NCBI GenBank assembly: GCA_020161265.1
Contig: JAIUOC010000002.1
Span: 186,001-250,000, forward strand
Source of the DNA: Chloroflexota bacterium
Lineage (GTDB): Bacteria; Chloroflexota; Chloroflexia; Chloroflexales; Herpetosiphonaceae
Length of the DNA: 64,000 bases
Reading direction: 5' to 3'
In this document: positions 2,994 to 11,066 of the stretch, one piece after another
Numbering within the stretch: position 1 is the first letter of the stretch
Layout of the letters: each line of letters opens with the position of its first letter
Program-made: the position numbers and the translations under genes
The notes under the pieces: model-generated
The model's database searches: none
The model's input: the letters and a program-made list of their open reading frames with translations, nothing else
Told to the model about the DNA's origin: nothing

Positions 2994-3062
2994 TGGCTAG
3001 CCAAAGCCTCAACCAGCAGCTATACTAGCGCCAAGCGTCTGGATTGAACGGAGGTTGCAACG

Positions 3063-3863
3063 ATGGCCTTAACCTTTCAAACCGCCCCACGCATTTCGCA
3101 AGCAGAGTTTCGGCGCGTGCTCGAACGTGGCACAGAGCTTGGTCGCTCGCCCGTCGCCCCTTTTGCCGATGAGTGCTACCAAATTATTGTTGGCTATGGC
3201 TTAGATCCAGCGGTGGCGCTCGGTTTTTTCGCCCACGAATCGCAATTTGGCCTCGATGGTGTTTCAACCAAAAGCCTCAATTGGGGCAATGTTCGCACGC
3301 CTTACGATCCCAAACGCGCTGCCGGAACGGTGCAAAGCGCTAGCGGCCATGGCGAATTTGTCTGTTTTCGTTCGTGGCAGGATGGGTTACGCGATTGGTG
3401 TGAGCGGATTCTCAATCGTTATATCAAAGAACGTGGCCTAACCACGGTCGATGCGGCGATTCCGGTCTATGCTCCTTCATCCGATGGCAACAACGAAAAA
3501 GCCTATATCCAGCATGTTGAACGATTGGTAACTCGTTGGCAGGCGGAAGATCCCCAGCCTGTGGTAGTTTCAACAGGAGGTCCAAGCGTGGCTGAATTAC
3601 AAGATGCCTTGATGGTCGCAGCGTTCGAGGCGGTTGGCGCAACCTATCATCCCGAGTGGGCTTTTCATCAATATGCCATGAACGAGGCCAAGGCTGGGCG
3701 GTTTCTTGGCTCGCCACTCGGCGAAAGCAAACGGATCACGGTTGGCGGCCAGCAATTTTCGGTGCAAGTCTTTGCGCTCGATACACTCTACACGCCGATT
3801 GGCAACCCTGAGAGCAGCACCAACTGGAGCGATATTCGGCGGCTCAGTGCTTTGCTCAAGTAA
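3063..3863 (+). CDS. Glucosaminidase-domain protein
   Basis: 266 residues starting at the ATG after CGGAGG. Residues 40-160 carry the Mnd-glycosidase/glucosaminidase fold: a helix ending FFAHESQFG with the likely catalytic Glu, then SLNWGNVRTP, a FVCFRSWQDGLRDW segment and a YAPSSDGN motif, as in peptidoglycan-cleaving N-acetylglucosaminidases. Residues 185-266 form a second small domain (WAFHQYAMNEAKAGRFLGSP) of unknown role. No signal peptide is visible, which is odd for a wall hydrolase; it may leave by lysis or another route. Its stop codon nearly abuts that of the convergent HAD gene. Confidence 0.8.
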   Translation: MALTFQTAPRISQAEFRRVLERGTELGRSPVAPFADECYQIIVGYGLDPAVALGFFAHESQFGLDGVSTKSLNWGNVRTPYDPKRAAGTVQSASGHGEFVCFRSWQDGLRDWCERILNRYIKERGLTTVDAAIPVYAPSSDGNNEKAYIQHVERLVTRWQAEDPQPVVVSTGGPSVAELQDALMVAAFEAVGATYHPEWAFHQYAMNEAKAGRFLGSPLGESKRITVGGQQFSVQVFALDTLYTPIGNPESSTNWSDIRRLSALLK

Positions 3864-3864
3864 G

Positions 3865-4572
3865 CTAGAAGTTCGCAATCAAATGCAGCGCAAACCGCAT
3901 GAGATCAGGCACAATCAAATCGGGAGTATGCTGCGAGGCTTCGGTGGTGGCTTGCGGGCGTTTGACCAAGGCCGCCCGTAAGCCTGCCAACTGCGCACCT
4001 TGCACATCACGAAACAGATTATCGCCAATATACCAAGGATGGTTGGCCGGAGTTTCGACTTGGGCTAAGGCATGAGCAAATAAACGCGGGTCGGGCTTAC
4101 GATAGGCATAATCTGAAGAAATCACGATTGGGTCGAAATAGTCCAGAATTTCTAATTCAGCTAATTCAGCCAGGGCAATCACTCGCTGCGCATCAGAAAC
4201 AATGCCCAAGCGATAGTGCCGATGTAATATTCGCAAGGCTTCTTTGGTATCAGGGAAAAGCTGGAGATGCTTGATGCTCAACACGCGTAATAATTGGGTG
4301 ATACTGACCGCCTCAGTCGGATCAAGCCCAAATTCATCAAGCAACGCAGCCCAAATTGCCTCAGTTTGCCATTCGGGGTAAGCTTCGTGGGCTGGCAAAT
4401 TGGCTTGCATCGCCGCAAAATAGCGCTTATGTAAACTATCGGCGCTACAAGCCACACCACGATAGCGCAACCACTGCGCTAAGTGCTGCCACAACGCTGG
4501 CTGATGCTCGTCGGTATGCACATCAACCAGCGTGCCATAAATATCAAACAATACTAGCGGACTACCAGGCAT
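3865..4572 (-). CDS. HAD-superfamily hydrolase
   Basis: 235 residues. Motif I, FDIYGTLVD near residue 9, has the nucleophile Asp and the D-x-Y-G-T form typical of haloacid-dehalogenase subfamily IA. Motif II is IVSDAQR near residue 135, and the Lys and Asp motifs are SDYAYRKPDPRLF and YIGDNLFRDVQGA. Cap helices occupy residues 20-100. The family hydrolyses small phosphate esters; the substrate cannot be told here. GGAGG lies seven bases before the ATG, inside the upstream phosphotransferase gene, which it overlaps by 19 bp. The two genes are translationally coupled and probably handle related phosphorylated metabolites. Confidence 0.88.
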   Translation of the reverse strand: MPGSPLVLFDIYGTLVDVHTDEHQPALWQHLAQWLRYRGVACSADSLHKRYFAAMQANLPAHEAYPEWQTEAIWAALLDEFGLDPTEAVSITQLLRVLSIKHLQLFPDTKEALRILHRHYRLGIVSDAQRVIALAELAELEILDYFDPIVISSDYAYRKPDPRLFAHALAQVETPANHPWYIGDNLFRDVQGAQLAGLRAALVKRPQATTEASQHTPDLIVPDLMRFALHLIANF

Positions 4573-5564
4573 GCCTGTGCCTCCGCAACCAACCGTTGAC
4601 GATATTCCCAGCTAAACCATTCGTTGCGAGCAATCCGCAACAAATAGCAGCCCATATAAAATTGGCCACGTTGGGTAAAGGCGGCAAATTCCTCTTGATC
4701 AAAATCGCTCAACAAACCATAGCGATCATAAACCCGACGAATTAACCACTCAGCAGCGGTTGGATCGCCGGTGGCATTGAAGAAGGCATGCTTCAATTCA
4801 GCCACCATACAGCCAATATCAATCGCTGGATCATCGTGGCGGGATCGCTCCCAATCGATTAATGCAAGCTCTTCCGGAGCAGTAAAGAGCATATTGGCCG
4901 GAGTTGCATCGCCATGAATCATCGAACGTAGGCCTTGATGCAGCATACCGCCGGCTTCCCAATGCACTTGGAGCATGCGTAAATTGGCCAACGCTGTATG
5001 ATTGAGCAATTCTTGTTCGCGCAATTGGCGCAACAATTTTTCCCAATATTCCCAAGCATTGGTCACATCAATTTTATCGGTGGTGGCAGTTCGACGGTGC
5101 AAGGTGGCCAACCAACCAGTAATCGTATTGACATAGGCCATCAATGGGCCAAGGTTGCGGGTTTGCAGGGTGGTTTCGAGAATTGTGCCCCAACTTTGGC
5201 CTGGCAACCATTCAGTGATCAACAGCAGGCGCTCAGGGTCGGTGGCCAATGGGCGCGGCACCAAATAGGGGGCTTGGGCAAAACCCAGCGCGTGCAATTG
5301 CGCCAGCGTCGTGGCTTCGCGGTTCAACAATGTGCGTGAGTAGGTGGGCAAAAACCGTCGGCCATCTAAGCCAGTTTTATGCTCAAACGACTTAATGACC
5401 ACGTGTACTCCGCTATGGGCTTCATGCACCCGTTGCACGCTGGGAGTATTCATAATTGGTTCGACATTGAACGTTGGATGTAACGTGAAAATCCCTAAAC
5501 TTGGCAGGGCTTGATCACGTAGCGCAGGAAATGCGCGATGATCTGAGAGCAGCATGATCGTCAT
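4554..5564 (-). CDS. Aminoglycoside-phosphotransferase-family kinase
   Basis: 336 residues starting at the ATG after AAGGAG. The APH/choline-kinase fold is shown by a VVIKSFE lysine strand near residue 55, a hinge ITEWLPGQSW near 115, the Brenner motif MIHGDATPANML near 215 with catalytic Asp and Asn, and LALIDWERS with the Mg-binding Asp. The first 40 residues before the kinase core are not conserved by eye. The family phosphorylates hydroxyls on sugars, amines or antibiotics. With the overlapping HAD phosphatase this suggests a small metabolite phosphorylation/repair unit rather than antibiotic resistance, but that is inference. Confidence 0.85.
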   Translation of the reverse strand: MTIMLLSDHRAFPALRDQALPSLGIFTLHPTFNVEPIMNTPSVQRVHEAHSGVHVVIKSFEHKTGLDGRRFLPTYSRTLLNREATTLAQLHALGFAQAPYLVPRPLATDPERLLLITEWLPGQSWGTILETTLQTRNLGPLMAYVNTITGWLATLHRRTATTDKIDVTNAWEYWEKLLRQLREQELLNHTALANLRMLQVHWEAGGMLHQGLRSMIHGDATPANMLFTAPEELALIDWERSRHDDPAIDIGCMVAELKHAFFNATGDPTAAEWLIRRVYDRYGLLSDFDQEEFAAFTQRGQFYMGCYLLRIARNEWFSWEYRQRLVAEAQACLVVR

Positions 5565-5749
5565 CGTTCGCCCGCTCCTTCCTTTATACGAGTTCCACCA
5601 CCATCGGTTGGGCGGCTCACATTGCCGCTAGTGGGGAATGGCTAGAATGTGCAGAACCTAGCTAAATTCAAGTTTTGCAAATATTCACCTATTCAGCAAT
5701 GGTTGAATAGTCCTTGCTTCCTCACAGATAGTTAGGCCTTTTTAATTTG

Positions 5750-5763
5750 TGTAAACGTTTACA
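5750..5763. promoter_or_regulatory. LacI-family-type operator palindrome
   Basis: TGTAAACGTTTACA is a perfect 14-bp palindrome with a central CG, the form bound by many LacI/GalR-family repressors. It sits 186 bp upstream of the phosphotransferase start. No LacI-type gene is in the window. Confidence 0.45.
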
Positions 5764-5788
5764 AATACTAACATAGCTAGCTAGCATT

Positions 5789-5895
5789 GTTAATCACAGT
5801 CAAGGGAGTAGAAATAGGTGATTCGTTATCCTATGTTAAGGTGATTAACGATCCCCTGTAGGAGTTATTAATCACCTCACTTGACCACAGTTAAC
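5789..5895 (-). other. Candidate structured RNA (nested dyads) downstream of the reverse transcriptase gene
   Basis: The outer arms GTTAA (5789-5793) and GTCAAG (5799-5804) pair with CTTGAC (5880-5885) and TTAAC (5891-5895), leaving a symmetrical 5-nt internal loop. Inside are ATAGG/CCTAT (5814-5818, 5830-5834) and a 10-bp helix AGGTGATTAA/TTAATCACCT (5839-5848, 5868-5877). Together they give a branched fold of about 107 nt. It begins about 65 bp past the RT stop on the RT strand. It could be an RNA partner, a 3' regulatory element or a set of protein-binding sites. Confidence 0.35.
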
Positions 5896-5960
5896 ATTAA
5901 CAAAAACTAACTATTAGACCACGATTGGCAGTTTAAATTTGATTTCTCTCGCGAGGCAGT

Positions 5961-8321
5961 TTATTCGACCGCGCCGTGCAATTTATGAGCTGATTTACGC
6001 GCAATCAGTTGTAATGGCACGAGTTCTGTAAAGAGAAAACGAAAACTTCCGCAGCGTTCGAGCATTTGGGGGCCGTAGAGTGCCAATACCCAGCGCCAAT
6101 AGGCCGATAAGCCATGTTGCTCGCCATTACGCACTTCGCCACCTCGCGCAATAAAATCATCGGTCAATGATGTCAATACACTGTTGGCTTCTGGCTCGCT
6201 TGCCGCAAGTTTTTGCAACCAATGGCGATAAAACTTGCGCCATGGATTATCGTTTTGTTGCCACCATGCCAAGCGTTCGCTTGGCACGTTTGGTGCTGTA
6301 GCTTCTTGCCACGCTTGCTGGTAACTATGAGCAATAATCAACGGTTGTTGAATACCCAAGCCGCCAGCAGTGATTGGCCAATGAAACCAACCTTCGGGCA
6401 AACTAACGCTGTTGTTCAAACGCTGGTGAATCAAATCGCCAACATAGGCGACCATGCTGCCTTGCTGAATGATCTGTTGACCATAGCGCCATAAGGTTGT
6501 ACGCACTTGCTCACGATGACTGGCTCCAAGGTTGACCCGCAGACCAATCGCTTGGCATAGGTAGGTACAAGCGCCATTATACACCTCAATTTTATTAAGA
6601 ATTGCAGGTGTATTGGTGATCGTCTGGGCAGTTTGGTTAATATATTCGCCAATCAGACTATGATCAAGTTGCCATGTGCCTTGAGCATCAAGCGTCAAAA
6701 AGAGCCAATGTGGCGCTTGTTGTGGTAATTCGCTGGGTAATTGGCCATTAATTGCCATTGCACCAGTTTTTTGCTCATTCAGATTCAGGCCACAGCTAGC
6801 ACACCAGGTTTGCAGTGCTTGCCATGCTTTGCGCATTTCATCAGGATCGGTGGCGATAATTGTTAGATCATCGACAAAGCGCACGATTTGCACATGGGCA
6901 TGCAACTCAAGATATTGCTCCATTAATCGCAACACTAACTCGCCTAAAATGTCTGAAATTGGACGATGATTGGGGATGCCAACCCGCTGCTGGGTTGCTT
7001 GCTGATTGACCTGCAACGGCACTGCCATATATTCAGCAAAAAAGCCAATTTGCTGCTCGCTCAAGCCCATGCGCTGCAACACATCGAGCACAAATTGTTG
7101 ATTGAGCGACGGATAGTAGTCGCGGAAATCAGTTTTGAGCACATAGATGGCTTGGTCGGGTGTGGCATGCAGGCCAAGCTGAATTTCGGCATTAATCAAG
7201 CGTAATGCAACTTCGAGATTATGCTCATAATTGCTATCATACTCGGCCAATTGGCTCCATTGCTGCAAGCGAGTAATTTCAGAAGCTCGACTGGCAAAAA
7301 TCGAATGCGGATTGCCATACAATTCAAGCTGTTCAGCAGCATCAATTGCGAGCGGGCGGCGCAGGGTGTGCCACAAATTAACGCTTTTGGAAACTGCATA
7401 GCTTTCGGCAATCAGCTTATTCAAATCGCGATCATAGCCACGCTCTTGGGCGATGCGCTTGAGTTTTTTCAAGGGCAATGTGCTGTTAACCCGACAGAAT
7501 TTGGCAAAATACTCTTGCCAATGCTCAGCAACGACGTGATGCAAACAGGCAGTCAGCAAATCTTCTTGCAAAAATAAGCGCCATTTAGTTCGCGCAAATT
7601 GGGCAACCGCCGTAACTCCGGCCTTGGGCCAGCGCCAATCGGCCAACTGGGCACGCACAATCATCAAGGCATCGGCCAATTCTTTGCGCATAATCGGATC
7701 GCCCAAAATCTGACGAGCCTCAGACCGAGTAGCGGTGCTGTAAAAACTATCTTTAGCAATCCGCCGCAAAATCGCGCAGAGTGTATCGCTATCAATTTCA
7801 TCAGGCTCAGCCTGTAGCGCTTTGCTCAATTCGCTGCGAGTTTCAAGATCAAATTGATCATGAAAGATGGCATCAAGCACCGCCCCATGCTGGGTCGCCA
7901 TGCTTGGCTGATTAATTTGGGCAACGAGGCTTTGGGCCTGCTCCGGGTAGCTCACCGCCACTTCAGCATGATCAAGCCATTCTTGAAATAGTGCGCCGAA
8001 AATCGAGACTAATTCGGCTCGTAGTTGGCCGCTGGCCAGTTCGCGCTCTAACTCAGCCGACCACCAAGCGGTTAATTCGCTGCTCGCAGGCGTAGCCGGA
8101 TCGCTCAATAAACGCATATTGGTGATGCTTGGGTGCAGCGGCTGTTTGGCAAAGGTTAATTGCTGGAGCTGCTCGTGAAGCAGGTTAATCCGAGCATGGG
8201 GTTCTTCAATTGTGGCTAAATGTTGGCTAATTTCGGAATAGGTTGCAAGGGCTTGCTCACGTTGCAAGCCCAGCTCGCGCAATTTAATCGCAGTTACCAA
8301 TTGTTCACTTGCAGTTAACAT
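5961..8321 (-). CDS. Cellular (RVT-like) reverse transcriptase
   Basis: 786 residues. Palm motifs: A, LKTDFRDYYPSL near 395-406 with catalytic Asp; B, VGIPNHRPISDIL near 447-459; C, VRFVDDLTIIA near 480-490 with the Asp pair; D, GLNLNEQKTG near 511-520. A long helical N-terminus of about 350 residues, possibly coiled coil at 5-60, precedes the fingers. About 250 residues follow the palm, including TAGGLGIQQPL. There is no maturase, endonuclease, integrase or protease domain, and no retron-like RNA space upstream. This architecture fits RVT, the non-mobile RT-related cellular genes of fungi and other eukaryotes; I recall a Herpetosiphon member. A defence-type RT is the alternative. It starts 28 bp after hisG, so the two are probably cotranscribed. 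Confidence 0.8.
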   Translation of the reverse strand: MLTASEQLVTAIKLRELGLQREQALATYSEISQHLATIEEPHARINLLHEQLQQLTFAKQPLHPSITNMRLLSDPATPASSELTAWWSAELERELASGQLRAELVSIFGALFQEWLDHAEVAVSYPEQAQSLVAQINQPSMATQHGAVLDAIFHDQFDLETRSELSKALQAEPDEIDSDTLCAILRRIAKDSFYSTATRSEARQILGDPIMRKELADALMIVRAQLADWRWPKAGVTAVAQFARTKWRLFLQEDLLTACLHHVVAEHWQEYFAKFCRVNSTLPLKKLKRIAQERGYDRDLNKLIAESYAVSKSVNLWHTLRRPLAIDAAEQLELYGNPHSIFASRASEITRLQQWSQLAEYDSNYEHNLEVALRLINAEIQLGLHATPDQAIYVLKTDFRDYYPSLNQQFVLDVLQRMGLSEQQIGFFAEYMAVPLQVNQQATQQRVGIPNHRPISDILGELVLRLMEQYLELHAHVQIVRFVDDLTIIATDPDEMRKAWQALQTWCASCGLNLNEQKTGAMAINGQLPSELPQQAPHWLFLTLDAQGTWQLDHSLIGEYINQTAQTITNTPAILNKIEVYNGACTYLCQAIGLRVNLGASHREQVRTTLWRYGQQIIQQGSMVAYVGDLIHQRLNNSVSLPEGWFHWPITAGGLGIQQPLIIAHSYQQAWQEATAPNVPSERLAWWQQNDNPWRKFYRHWLQKLAASEPEANSVLTSLTDDFIARGGEVRNGEQHGLSAYWRWVLALYGPQMLERCGSFRFLFTELVPLQLIARKSAHKLHGAVE

Positions 8322-8349
8322 CAGTGCCTCCAGCGTGGAGCACCTTCTG

Positions 8350-9351
8350 CTAGCTTTTGTGCATCAACTCGCTCAATGCGGCAAAACTTTGGGAACGTTC
8401 GGCAAAAACATAGTGGACTGGCAAAACCGTAATGCCTGTTGAGCCAATCGAACGCAAATGATCGATCGCTGGCAAAATGTTGGCGCTATCGACGACCAAC
8501 GACACCGCGTACCAGCCTTCACCACCATCGCGACTCCAAACTGGCGAAACAGTTGGGCCTTGCAATCCTGCCAAGGCGGCATGGGCTACCACTCTGGCCC
8601 CAACATCGGCGACATCGGAACCTGGCACGTTGGCAATCAACGAAACATAGGTTTTAGCGCGATGGCGAGCTTCGATCAACTCTAAAATCGATTGGACAAC
8701 CCGTTGTTTTTGCGAACTTTCCCGTAGCGACCGTCGGTTGGCGATTAATGCAGCTTGCGCTTGCAGAATCGTGCCTCCTTGAATCATTTTGAGATGATTA
8801 TCGCGTAGGGTTGTCCCAGTGGCTGTCAAATCAGCGATGATATCGGCATATCCTAACGAAGGCGCGGCCTCGGTTGCCCCTTGCGAGTCGATCAGCGCAA
8901 AAACATTGATGCCTTGCTGATGACACCATTGGCGTACCAAATTGGGAAACTTGGTGGCGATCCGCAATTGGCGGCCAGCCCGGGCATACTCCGCCGCTAA
9001 ATCGGCCACATCACGCCATGAGGTTACGTCAATCCAATGATCGGGCACGGCCAGCACTAAATCGCAGTAGCCAAAGCCCAAATCTTTATAGACCACCACT
9101 AGATCATCGCTCTCGCCGCCTAGCTCCTCGACCAAATCATAGCCACTTACGCCCAAATCAATCGAGCCATCGGCGACTTTCTCGACAATATCAGGAGCGC
9201 GATGCAGCAACACTTCAACTTCGGGCAGCGTTTTGATCGAAGCTGTGTAGCGGCGCGGATTGGGCCGCGAAACTTTCAGGCCACAGCTTTCAAAAAAGCG
9301 AAACGTATCATCAGCAAGAGCACCTTTGGAAGGCACAGCAAAACGTAGCAT
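8350..9351 (-). CDS. hisG: ATP phosphoribosyltransferase (histidine biosynthesis, first step)
   Basis: 333 residues from the ATG at 9351, which overlaps the copCD stop as TAATG and gives the family-typical start MLRFAVPSKGAL. HisG joins ATP and PRPP to open histidine synthesis. Diagnostic segments are RPNPRRY, a DLGVSGYDLVEELGG loop, YADIIADLTATGTTLRDN and IANRRSL, followed by a C-terminal regulatory ACT-like domain from about residue 225. Length fits the long, feedback-regulated form that needs no HisZ. No other his gene is in the window. Coupling to a copper-transport gene upstream and an RT downstream is unusual. Confidence 0.93.
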   Translation of the reverse strand: MLRFAVPSKGALADDTFRFFESCGLKVSRPNPRRYTASIKTLPEVEVLLHRAPDIVEKVADGSIDLGVSGYDLVEELGGESDDLVVVYKDLGFGYCDLVLAVPDHWIDVTSWRDVADLAAEYARAGRQLRIATKFPNLVRQWCHQQGINVFALIDSQGATEAAPSLGYADIIADLTATGTTLRDNHLKMIQGGTILQAQAALIANRRSLRESSQKQRVVQSILELIEARHRAKTYVSLIANVPGSDVADVGARVVAHAALAGLQGPTVSPVWSRDGGEGWYAVSLVVDSANILPAIDHLRSIGSTGITVLPVHYVFAERSQSFAALSELMHKS

Positions 9352-11066
9352 TAGCGCGTTATCTCCACAGTCCATTCAGCAGTTACGTCGGGCAAATTCA
9401 AACGACGCACCTGCATTTCGATCTTCCAGCGCCCAACCAAGCTTAACGCTCCTGAGGTCGCGGTAAAACGTCCATCAGCAGCAGGTTCAAGAATTGCCAC
9501 TTGTTGGCCAGCTTCGAGATCAAGCGATTCAAAGCGTAAGCGTACTCGATCTGGGCGAATTACGCCATTCGCATCGCGGACGGTTGCACTAAATTGGCGC
9601 TCACCTGGCCGATTATCATCAGTATCGAGGGTCATGGTTAAATCTTCGCGCTGCGCTGTTAGATAGAGCGGCTGGGCGACCCGTGGGGTTGGCGTTGGCA
9701 AGGTTGGCAAGGCTGTGCCGCCAGCACTAGGAGCAGCTTTGACTGGATGCGGCGTTTGGGTCAAAGCACTAGCAACCAGAATCACCCCAATCGCCAAAGC
9801 ACTTTCCAAGCCTAGGGTCAGGCCAATTTTGACCACAGTTGTTTGATCTTTGGCAGCTTGCAAGCGGGGATTGAGCTTGCGCCAATGCCAAAAACCGAGC
9901 AACAAAGCCGCCAGCATCACCGCCAACTTGATCAACAAGGTCTGGCCGTAGCGCGATTCCCACAAGCCTGCCAAGGTTGGCAATTGATCAAAGGTACGCA
10001 TCGTGCCAGTCAACACAACCATCGCAATGCTAAACAAGGCCAACGGACTGAATCGGGCAATTAGCCAAGCCAAAGCACTGTTGCGTAGCGCCACCTCAGT
10101 TTTACGAAGCACCCAAGCACTCAAAGCCATCCCAATCAAACCACCAAACCAAACCGCCGCCGTCAGCATATGCATCCAATCTGAGGCCACCGGCGTGATT
10201 GGGTCGTCGATGTTGGCCGCCGCATGACCGCTCATACTAAATGTTAACAGGCTTAAACTCGCCAAAGCCAAAGCAGTATAGCCCATTGGTTTTTGGTAAG
10301 CAGCCAAGAACGTCAGCGGAATTAACAGTGTAATCGCAACCAAGCGAATCAAAGCCAACACGCCCCAACGGCTAATCGCCATCGAAGAAAGCACATCGGC
10401 ATATTGAATTGAGGCTAAACTACCATCACCAAAATCGCTGGCCCGTACCACAAATTCCCAAACCGAGCCAATCAATAACAAAACCAAACTCAACTGGGTC
10501 AACCAAATCGTTGGGCGAACCAGCAAAGGCAAACGCGATTCAGGATTATGTTGAATTGCAGGCAATAATAAAATCAACAACCACGCCAAACCGCCAATCG
10601 CGCCTAAGCCGCCAGTTAAGGCGATTGAGCGCCCGCTGACTACACCCCAATTCAAGCTAGCGTTGGCGGTTGCGCTAACTTCAACCGAGGGCGCAGTGGG
10701 AGCAACCCCAGTGCCAATGCTAAACAGCAACGAGCCAGCCGAACGATGGCCATCGGCGGTCGAAAGCACTTTGTAAATTAAGGTATATTCGCCAGGCCGC
10801 AGCTCAGCAGGCAAGGCCACCTGCATACTATCGGCAGCAGGAAACTGGGTTTGCGGTAGGCCAATTGGCTGCGATTGCTCATTGTAGAGCGTCAGCGAGC
10901 TATAACTACGATCAAGCGGCTCGCTAAATCGCAACACAACCTCAGCAGGTGCAACATCGAGCACCGCCCCATCAACAATGCTGCTTTCGATAACCAAGGC
11001 ATGAGCTGCCGCCACGCTTGGCCATAAACACAGCACAAAGAGAGCTACAATTAAAATCCGCTTCAT
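9351..11066 (-). CDS. CopC-CopD fusion copper protein
   Basis: 571 residues. A signal peptide (MKRILIVALFVLCLWPSVAAA) is followed at once by His, the mature N-terminus typical of CopC copper ligands. The CopC beta-barrel (residues 22-120) includes VVLRFSEPLDRSYSSLTLY and TADGHRSAGSLLFSIG. Residues 145-430 hold about eight membrane segments of the CopD family with GHAAANIDD and SDWMHMLTAAVWFGGLIG. A C-terminal extracytoplasmic beta domain covers 455-571. Family members bind copper outside the membrane and move it inward or to oxidase assembly factors. AAGGAA lies before the ATG. The stop overlaps hisG by one base. Confidence 0.9.
   Translation of the reverse strand: MKRILIVALFVLCLWPSVAAAHALVIESSIVDGAVLDVAPAEVVLRFSEPLDRSYSSLTLYNEQSQPIGLPQTQFPAADSMQVALPAELRPGEYTLIYKVLSTADGHRSAGSLLFSIGTGVAPTAPSVEVSATANASLNWGVVSGRSIALTGGLGAIGGLAWLLILLLPAIQHNPESRLPLLVRPTIWLTQLSLVLLLIGSVWEFVVRASDFGDGSLASIQYADVLSSMAISRWGVLALIRLVAITLLIPLTFLAAYQKPMGYTALALASLSLLTFSMSGHAAANIDDPITPVASDWMHMLTAAVWFGGLIGMALSAWVLRKTEVALRNSALAWLIARFSPLALFSIAMVVLTGTMRTFDQLPTLAGLWESRYGQTLLIKLAVMLAALLLGFWHWRKLNPRLQAAKDQTTVVKIGLTLGLESALAIGVILVASALTQTPHPVKAAPSAGGTALPTLPTPTPRVAQPLYLTAQREDLTMTLDTDDNRPGERQFSATVRDANGVIRPDRVRLRFESLDLEAGQQVAILEPAADGRFTATSGALSLVGRWKIEMQVRRLNLPDVTAEWTVEITR

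Follow-up and report, generated by a model that had tools for sequence, protein, structure and literature searches.

The window, the 64,000-nucleotide stretch of DNA analysed here, carries an intact, stand-alone, single-copy and non-mobile reverse transcriptase (RT) gene (Table 1). As the initial annotation had it, the open reading frame lies intact 28 bp behind hisG; the reading frame, its ATG, the GGAGG and the gap to hisG are all present, and the ATG is kept in all six Herpetosiphon genomes. GC and GC3 of the RT gene are close to the values of its neighbours. In all six species the gene sits between hisG and the APH and HAD genes, with CopCD, a cytochrome gene and an SMC-like gene farther upstream. 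The other side of the HAD gene is less uniform. Positions 1045–2930 of the window, between the 656-aa and HAD genes, form a variable interval with conserved flanks (seen also at loci L037–L040 and L048), in which CBM_4_9-type and other genes differ among Herpetosiphon species. A glucosaminidase-like (lysozyme-like) gene at 3063–3863 encodes a protein that is 100% identical in three species while its DNA is 95–97% identical, and hence appears strongly constrained; it is missing at this place in the other Herpetosiphon clade.

Table 1. Features of the reverse transcriptase locus, in window coordinates.
Feature	Position	Strand	Basis
Reverse transcriptase gene, very probably rvt / RT_UG37; 786 aa	5961..8321	-	ORF, Pfam and PADLOC profile matches
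Ribosome-binding site GGAGG, 5 nt before the RT ATG	8327..8331	-	Sequence; identical in 6/6 Herpetosiphon
hisG (PF01634 and PF08029), 28 bp upstream of RT, same strand	8350..9375	-	Pfam; adjoins RT in 6/6 Herpetosiphon
N-terminal amphipathic helical segment (aa 1–75), candidate coiled coil, many invariant residues	8097..8321	-	Alignment, heptad patterning
Invariant KWR (aa 246–248) and F250, candidate RT motif 2 (fingers)	7572..7586	-	Alignment; assignment inferred by eye
Variable, gap-rich region (aa 251–392), candidate RVT 'loop 2a' insertion	7145..7571	-	Spacing from motif 2 to motif A
RT motif A/3 YVLKTDFRDYYPSL, residues 393–406, catalytic D398	7104..7145	-	Profiles and homologue alignment
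RT motif B/4 equivalent GIPNHRPISDILGE, residues 448–461, without PQG	6939..6980	-	Profile comparison and homologue alignment
RT motif C/5 VRFVDDL, residues 480–486, catalytic D484 and D485	6864..6884	-	Profile comparison and homologue alignment
C-terminal signature YWRWVLALYGPQMLERCGSFRFLFTELVP, invariant Y741 and Y749	6015..6101	-	Homologue alignment
Conserved intergenic block of ~160 nt downstream of RT, probable promoter/operator of the APH-HAD genes	5723..5881	-	Conservation, folding, covariation
LacI-type palindrome TTTGTAAACGTTTACAC inside the conserved block	5749..5765	.	Sequence
APH-type phosphotransferase gene and HAD hydrolase gene, neighbours on the downstream side of RT in 6/6 species	3865..5564	-	Synteny, Pfam

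Pfam recognizes a single domain in the protein, RVT_1, at residues 386–523 (51.5 bits; cut-off 29.6). The family's conserved residues were defined from a 12-row homologue set made up of six syntenic Herpetosiphon orthologues and six divergent full-length homologues. D398, D484 and D485 are invariant in all 12, at identities down to 32%, and the earlier description of a complete set of palm motifs with intact catalytic aspartates is a fair one. The motif B equivalent follows the pattern G-x-P then x-x-[RH]-x-x-[SG]-[DN], the PQG of group II RTs being missing. Searches of the RT protein with Pfam, PADLOC and NCBIfam profiles detected no endonuclease, maturase, integrase or RNase H domain, in keeping with the claim that it lacks mobility domains.

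Outside the palm the protein departs from familiar RTs. Profile–profile comparison (hhalign) with group II RTs aligns the palm alone, motifs 3–7, and in this comparison the fingers motifs (1–2) are not recognizable. Because only the palm aligns, motif 2 was assigned by eye, to the invariant KWR with its nearby phenylalanine. In the literature, RVTs form a very long branch of domesticated RT genes in which a large insertion, loop 2a, separates motif 2 from motif 3; no other RT group, on that account, has members in both bacteria and eukaryotes (PMC5718144). From the arginine of KWR, our candidate motif 2, to the motif A aspartate there are 146–166 aa in all 12 homologues; in the group II alignment the corresponding invariant residues, R121 and D186, are 65 apart. 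Such spacing would leave room for an insertion of ~85 aa, a candidate loop 2a, between the candidate motif 2 and motif A.

Both long terminal regions of the RT are conserved throughout its own family. The N-terminus is amphipathic with heptad contrast, and forms helices in a low-confidence AlphaFold2 model built from five close orthologues (pLDDT 37). Of the long helical N-terminus initially annotated, the amphipathic patterning therefore stands, and the helices are only suggested, since they come from this pattern and from a model of pLDDT 37. An N-terminal coiled coil reportedly drives multimerization in the bacterial RVT that Yushenova and Arkhipova studied in 2018, whose C-terminal domain is likewise said to hold conserved tyrosines for priming. 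In the window protein the C-terminal signature, with the pattern YWRW ... YG ... G[ST]FRFL ... LVP, is the strongest outside the palm, and Y698, upstream of it, is as invariant in the 12 homologues as the two tyrosines within it. A PDB search found no RVT structure.

The RT is the only RVT_1-bearing gene of its genome, and each of the six Herpetosiphon genomes has one copy, 83–96% identical, at one fixed place. Among these orthologues dN/dS is 0.07–0.15 for the whole gene, the palm (at 0.09) and the C-terminal signature (at 0.11) having the lowest values; the gene is under purifying selection. Its neighbours are housekeeping genes, and no relatives were present in the plasmid, phage and IMG/VR collections searched. 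The view of a single-copy, non-mobile gene in ordinary chromosome is upheld by these observations, and the multiple scattered copies that would speak for a mobile element were not seen. The same data bear on the idea that we are dealing with a group II intron or some other retroelement, either mobile or as a remnant, an idea that draws on the palm alignment to group II RTs and on a match to the NCBIfam group II model TIGR04416 (58.1 bits against a cut-off of 300). We regard it as extremely improbable: maturase and endonuclease domains are absent, the single copy is syntenic and selectively maintained in six of six species, and the long termini are conserved across the RT's own family. A group II intron RT proper was rejected on the sub-cut-off TIGR04416 score and on the lack of a maturase or endonuclease domain and of a ribozyme, an Rfam search of window positions 3000–11000 giving none beyond sub-threshold noise.

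Among the genomes examined, only those of Herpetosiphon have the RT behind hisG, a place that has been stable since the ancestor of the genus. The sister genus (G073) has SMC, u186, cytochrome, CopC, CopCD and hisG in the same order with no RT behind hisG, where there is instead a convergent ORF, methyltransferase-like as read from its sequence; its own RT homologue, 40% identical, is on another contig. Since G073 keeps the CopCD–hisG cluster without the RT, linkage to hisG counts as one evolutionary event. In a sample of 400 Chloroflexota genomes, of which about 394 are from outside Herpetosiphon, six of the latter contain full-length homologues (G073, G302, G196, G307, G124 and G340). In two others (G328 and G265) the gene is truncated or broken, and G228 has one more remnant, which came from the UG37 profile and a protein search and was missed at a stricter cut-off. 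Decayed remnants of the RT gene in another Chloroflexota class lie at L047 (8854 onward), L049 (105–623) and L050 (3400–3855), each in its own genome; one of the three has a large internal deletion. A scan of genome contigs with patterns from this one protein gave matches in Herpetosiphon alone. Rarity outside that genus makes the gene look accessory. The homologue in G302, a member of the window's own order, is nearest to those of G196 (46%) and G307 (43%), from another class, and 38% identical to that of Herpetosiphon, which suggests horizontal transfer, in a tree whose deep forks are weakly supported. The six distant loci have no neighbouring genes in common, nor a recurrent defence partner; in G196 a gene with TIR and beta-helix domains stands directly upstream of the RT homologue.

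The best profile match is to PADLOC RT_UG37, which aligns residues 1–779 to positions 1–774 of a 778-position model with 1,222.8 bits; RT_UG4 comes next (60.7 bits, palm only), and AbiP2 gives 46.4 bits. PADLOC lists RT_UG37 among defence RTs (DRT). The initial annotation had proposed an RVT and set against that reading a best match to a UG/DRT or group II profile; the former is what was found, over the full length of RT_UG37, and the latter fell below its cut-off. Even so, UG37 looks like a second name for the bacterial RVT family, and not like a separate clade with a proven role in defence. HaRVT, the bacterial RVT of Yushenova and Arkhipova's 2018 study, is presumably from H. aurantiacus. 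We therefore took an inventory of RVT_1-bearing genes in H. aurantiacus DSM 785 (G001), where this gene is accompanied by others that can all be assigned. Group II RTs occur at four places, with group_II_RT_mat the top model at L076/L082, L086 and L088 (just below cut-off in L088). A retron-type RT (L090; contig C2, 1267–3090) matches PADLOC RT-Toprim_I-C over its length with 542 bits, on a contig that is probably a plasmid. The RT at 3.04 Mb stands immediately before Cas1 and is a CRISPR RT.

With every other H. aurantiacus RT being of group II, retron or CRISPR type, HaRVT must be the H. aurantiacus orthologue of the window RT, at CP000875.1 3377927–3380284, and very probably is, given an HaRVT that RVT_1 detects and that comes from H. 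aurantiacus, as we take it to. The RVT identity claimed at the outset thus gains indirect support from elimination in H. aurantiacus, from spacing that accommodates ~85 additional residues and from the invariant C-terminal tyrosines. We conclude with high confidence that the gene is the bacterial RVT of Herpetosiphon. As a separate observation, the H. aurantiacus CRISPR RT (L094, 7878–10258) has an insertion of ~120 aa within its RT domain, between RVT_1 positions 107 and 115, found also in G004. A cyanobacterial 'rvt' annotation (PMC3610870) was discounted, because it concerns an RT:HNH protein that looks group II-like.

Between the RT and APH genes lies the conserved block, single copy and at this place in every Herpetosiphon species. 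The two Herpetosiphon clades share 90% identity in this block, compared with 59–65% in flanking intergenic sequence, and it folds better than shuffled sequence (z −2.76). DRT2, DRT9 and DRT10 use a dedicated non-coding RNA as template, and the strong conservation, folding and single copy of the block would suit such a role for it, or for a neighbouring RNA, in the window. We consider a template RNA very unlikely, however. Covariation in the block is essentially nil (−0.17), the block is missing near the distant RT homologues, and Rfam returned nothing above threshold near the RT gene or in the distant loci. RVTs, moreover, are described as untemplated (PMC10680173). The block also contains a LacI-type palindrome, TTTGTAAACGTTTACAC, with one other near-match in the genome (L115; G000 C1:487475–487491), upstream of an ORF that reads as xylose isomerase. 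Because the palindrome is common to both regions, the block is probably a promoter/operator for the APH-HAD genes and not a template RNA, and the candidate was set aside on these grounds. The two occurrences of the palindrome suggest a sugar-responsive regulator of the APH-HAD genes. Between the block and the APH gene, G004 alone has a repeat-like insertion of ~177 bp (CCCCTCACCCCCTGACCCCCTCTCCC..., L048, about 8465–8645).

The main rival to a domesticated cellular role is antiphage defence, in which infection would trigger untemplated, protein-linked DNA synthesis by a UG37 DRT and so halt the phage, as for AbiK, Abi-P2 and DRT1. It takes this place because UG37, the best library match, is filed with the DRTs, and because UG/Abi RTs of Class 1 and Class 3 are known to polymerize without a template and with protein priming (PMC13275509). 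The patchy spread of the RT, its decayed remnants outside Herpetosiphon and the TIR-domain gene in G196 point the same way. Against this, the gene occupies one fixed chromosomal site beside housekeeping genes throughout the six Herpetosiphon genomes, and not a variable defence island; the distant loci yielded no recurrent defence partner, and the collections of plasmids, phages and IMG/VR contigs no relatives. To our knowledge, the validated DRT types 1–9 all correspond to UG groups other than UG37, and no experiment on UG37 appeared in the literature searched. Defence accordingly strikes us as unlikely, though a serious competitor. Less probable still is a history in which, bacterial RVT and UG37 being one lineage, the only RT family described from both bacteria and eukaryotes would be an untemplated polymerase with an antiviral RT as its starting point or with antiviral action as a second role. 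Were it true, fungi and rotifers would owe their RVT stress role to an immune or translation-shutdown response that they have kept.

For the RVT reading, a function has been outlined elsewhere. A 2023 meeting report describes rvt as single-copy, under purifying selection and capable of non-templated polymerization, and as a gene that, by way of its catalytic residues, eases starvation for amino acids and stress from antibiotics, to the benefit of bacteria, fungi and rotifers (PMC10680173). The initial statement that the cellular function is unknown is in this respect slightly out of date. The RVT of N. crassa acts as a terminal transferase, and inhibition of protein synthesis induces it strongly (PMC3520738). 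By its title, as cited in PMC12632851 and PMC11014452, the 2018 paper of Yushenova and Arkhipova deals with multimerization, protein priming and nucleotide preference of a bacterial RVT.

On the model of that work, the window RVT would multimerize through its N-terminal helices and add nucleotides without a copied template. To initiate, it would probably use either a tyrosine of its C-terminal domain (protein priming) or free 3′ ends (terminal transferase). By analogy with studied RVTs, we think template-independent, protein-primed chemistry reasonably likely. The gene is on the same strand as hisG and 28 bp from it; the two are therefore likely to be co-transcribed, which would make expression follow the demand for histidine, so that rvt may be made when histidine biosynthesis is needed. 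The products of rvt, or nucleotide-linked multimers, could then help the cell to withstand a shortage of amino acids or inhibition of translation. Whether the role is one in stress rather than in phage defence is evenly balanced in our judgement; linkage to hisG fits a stress role, though as a single evolutionary event. Taken as a whole, a domesticated Herpetosiphon rvt (equivalent to RT_UG37) that adds nucleotides without a template and acts under stress is the account we favour, by a modest degree.

The protein family was already known; the cross-naming of RVT and UG37 and the fixed linkage to hisG are useful additions to it. Two literatures apparently give one bacterial protein different names, and this locus joins them. 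The biological role of RVT is still being worked out, and a fixed, same-strand place behind hisG raises the question of whether rvt is tied to histidine or amino-acid starvation.

Comparison with known systems places the window RT as follows. It is stand-alone, like the Class 1 and Class 3 UG/Abi RTs (AbiK, Abi-P2 and DRT1), and would be expected to have their template-free, protein-primed mode (PMC13275509); relatedness to them is detectable in the palm only, the N- and C-terminal regions not being held in common, and neither a nitrilase nor another effector domain was found in the window RT. The match to PADLOC RT_UG37 is full length and its label implies defence, yet no defence island surrounds the gene in the window. 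Eukaryotic RVTs such as that of Neurospora crassa, compared by description only, resemble the window RT in being single copy and under purifying selection, with long termini and an apparent insertion between motifs 2 and 3 (PMC5718144, PMC3520738). Closest of all is the H. aurantiacus orthologue, in our reading HaRVT itself, which is 96% identical to the window RT over 786 aa and lies at the same locus, with no difference found between the two.
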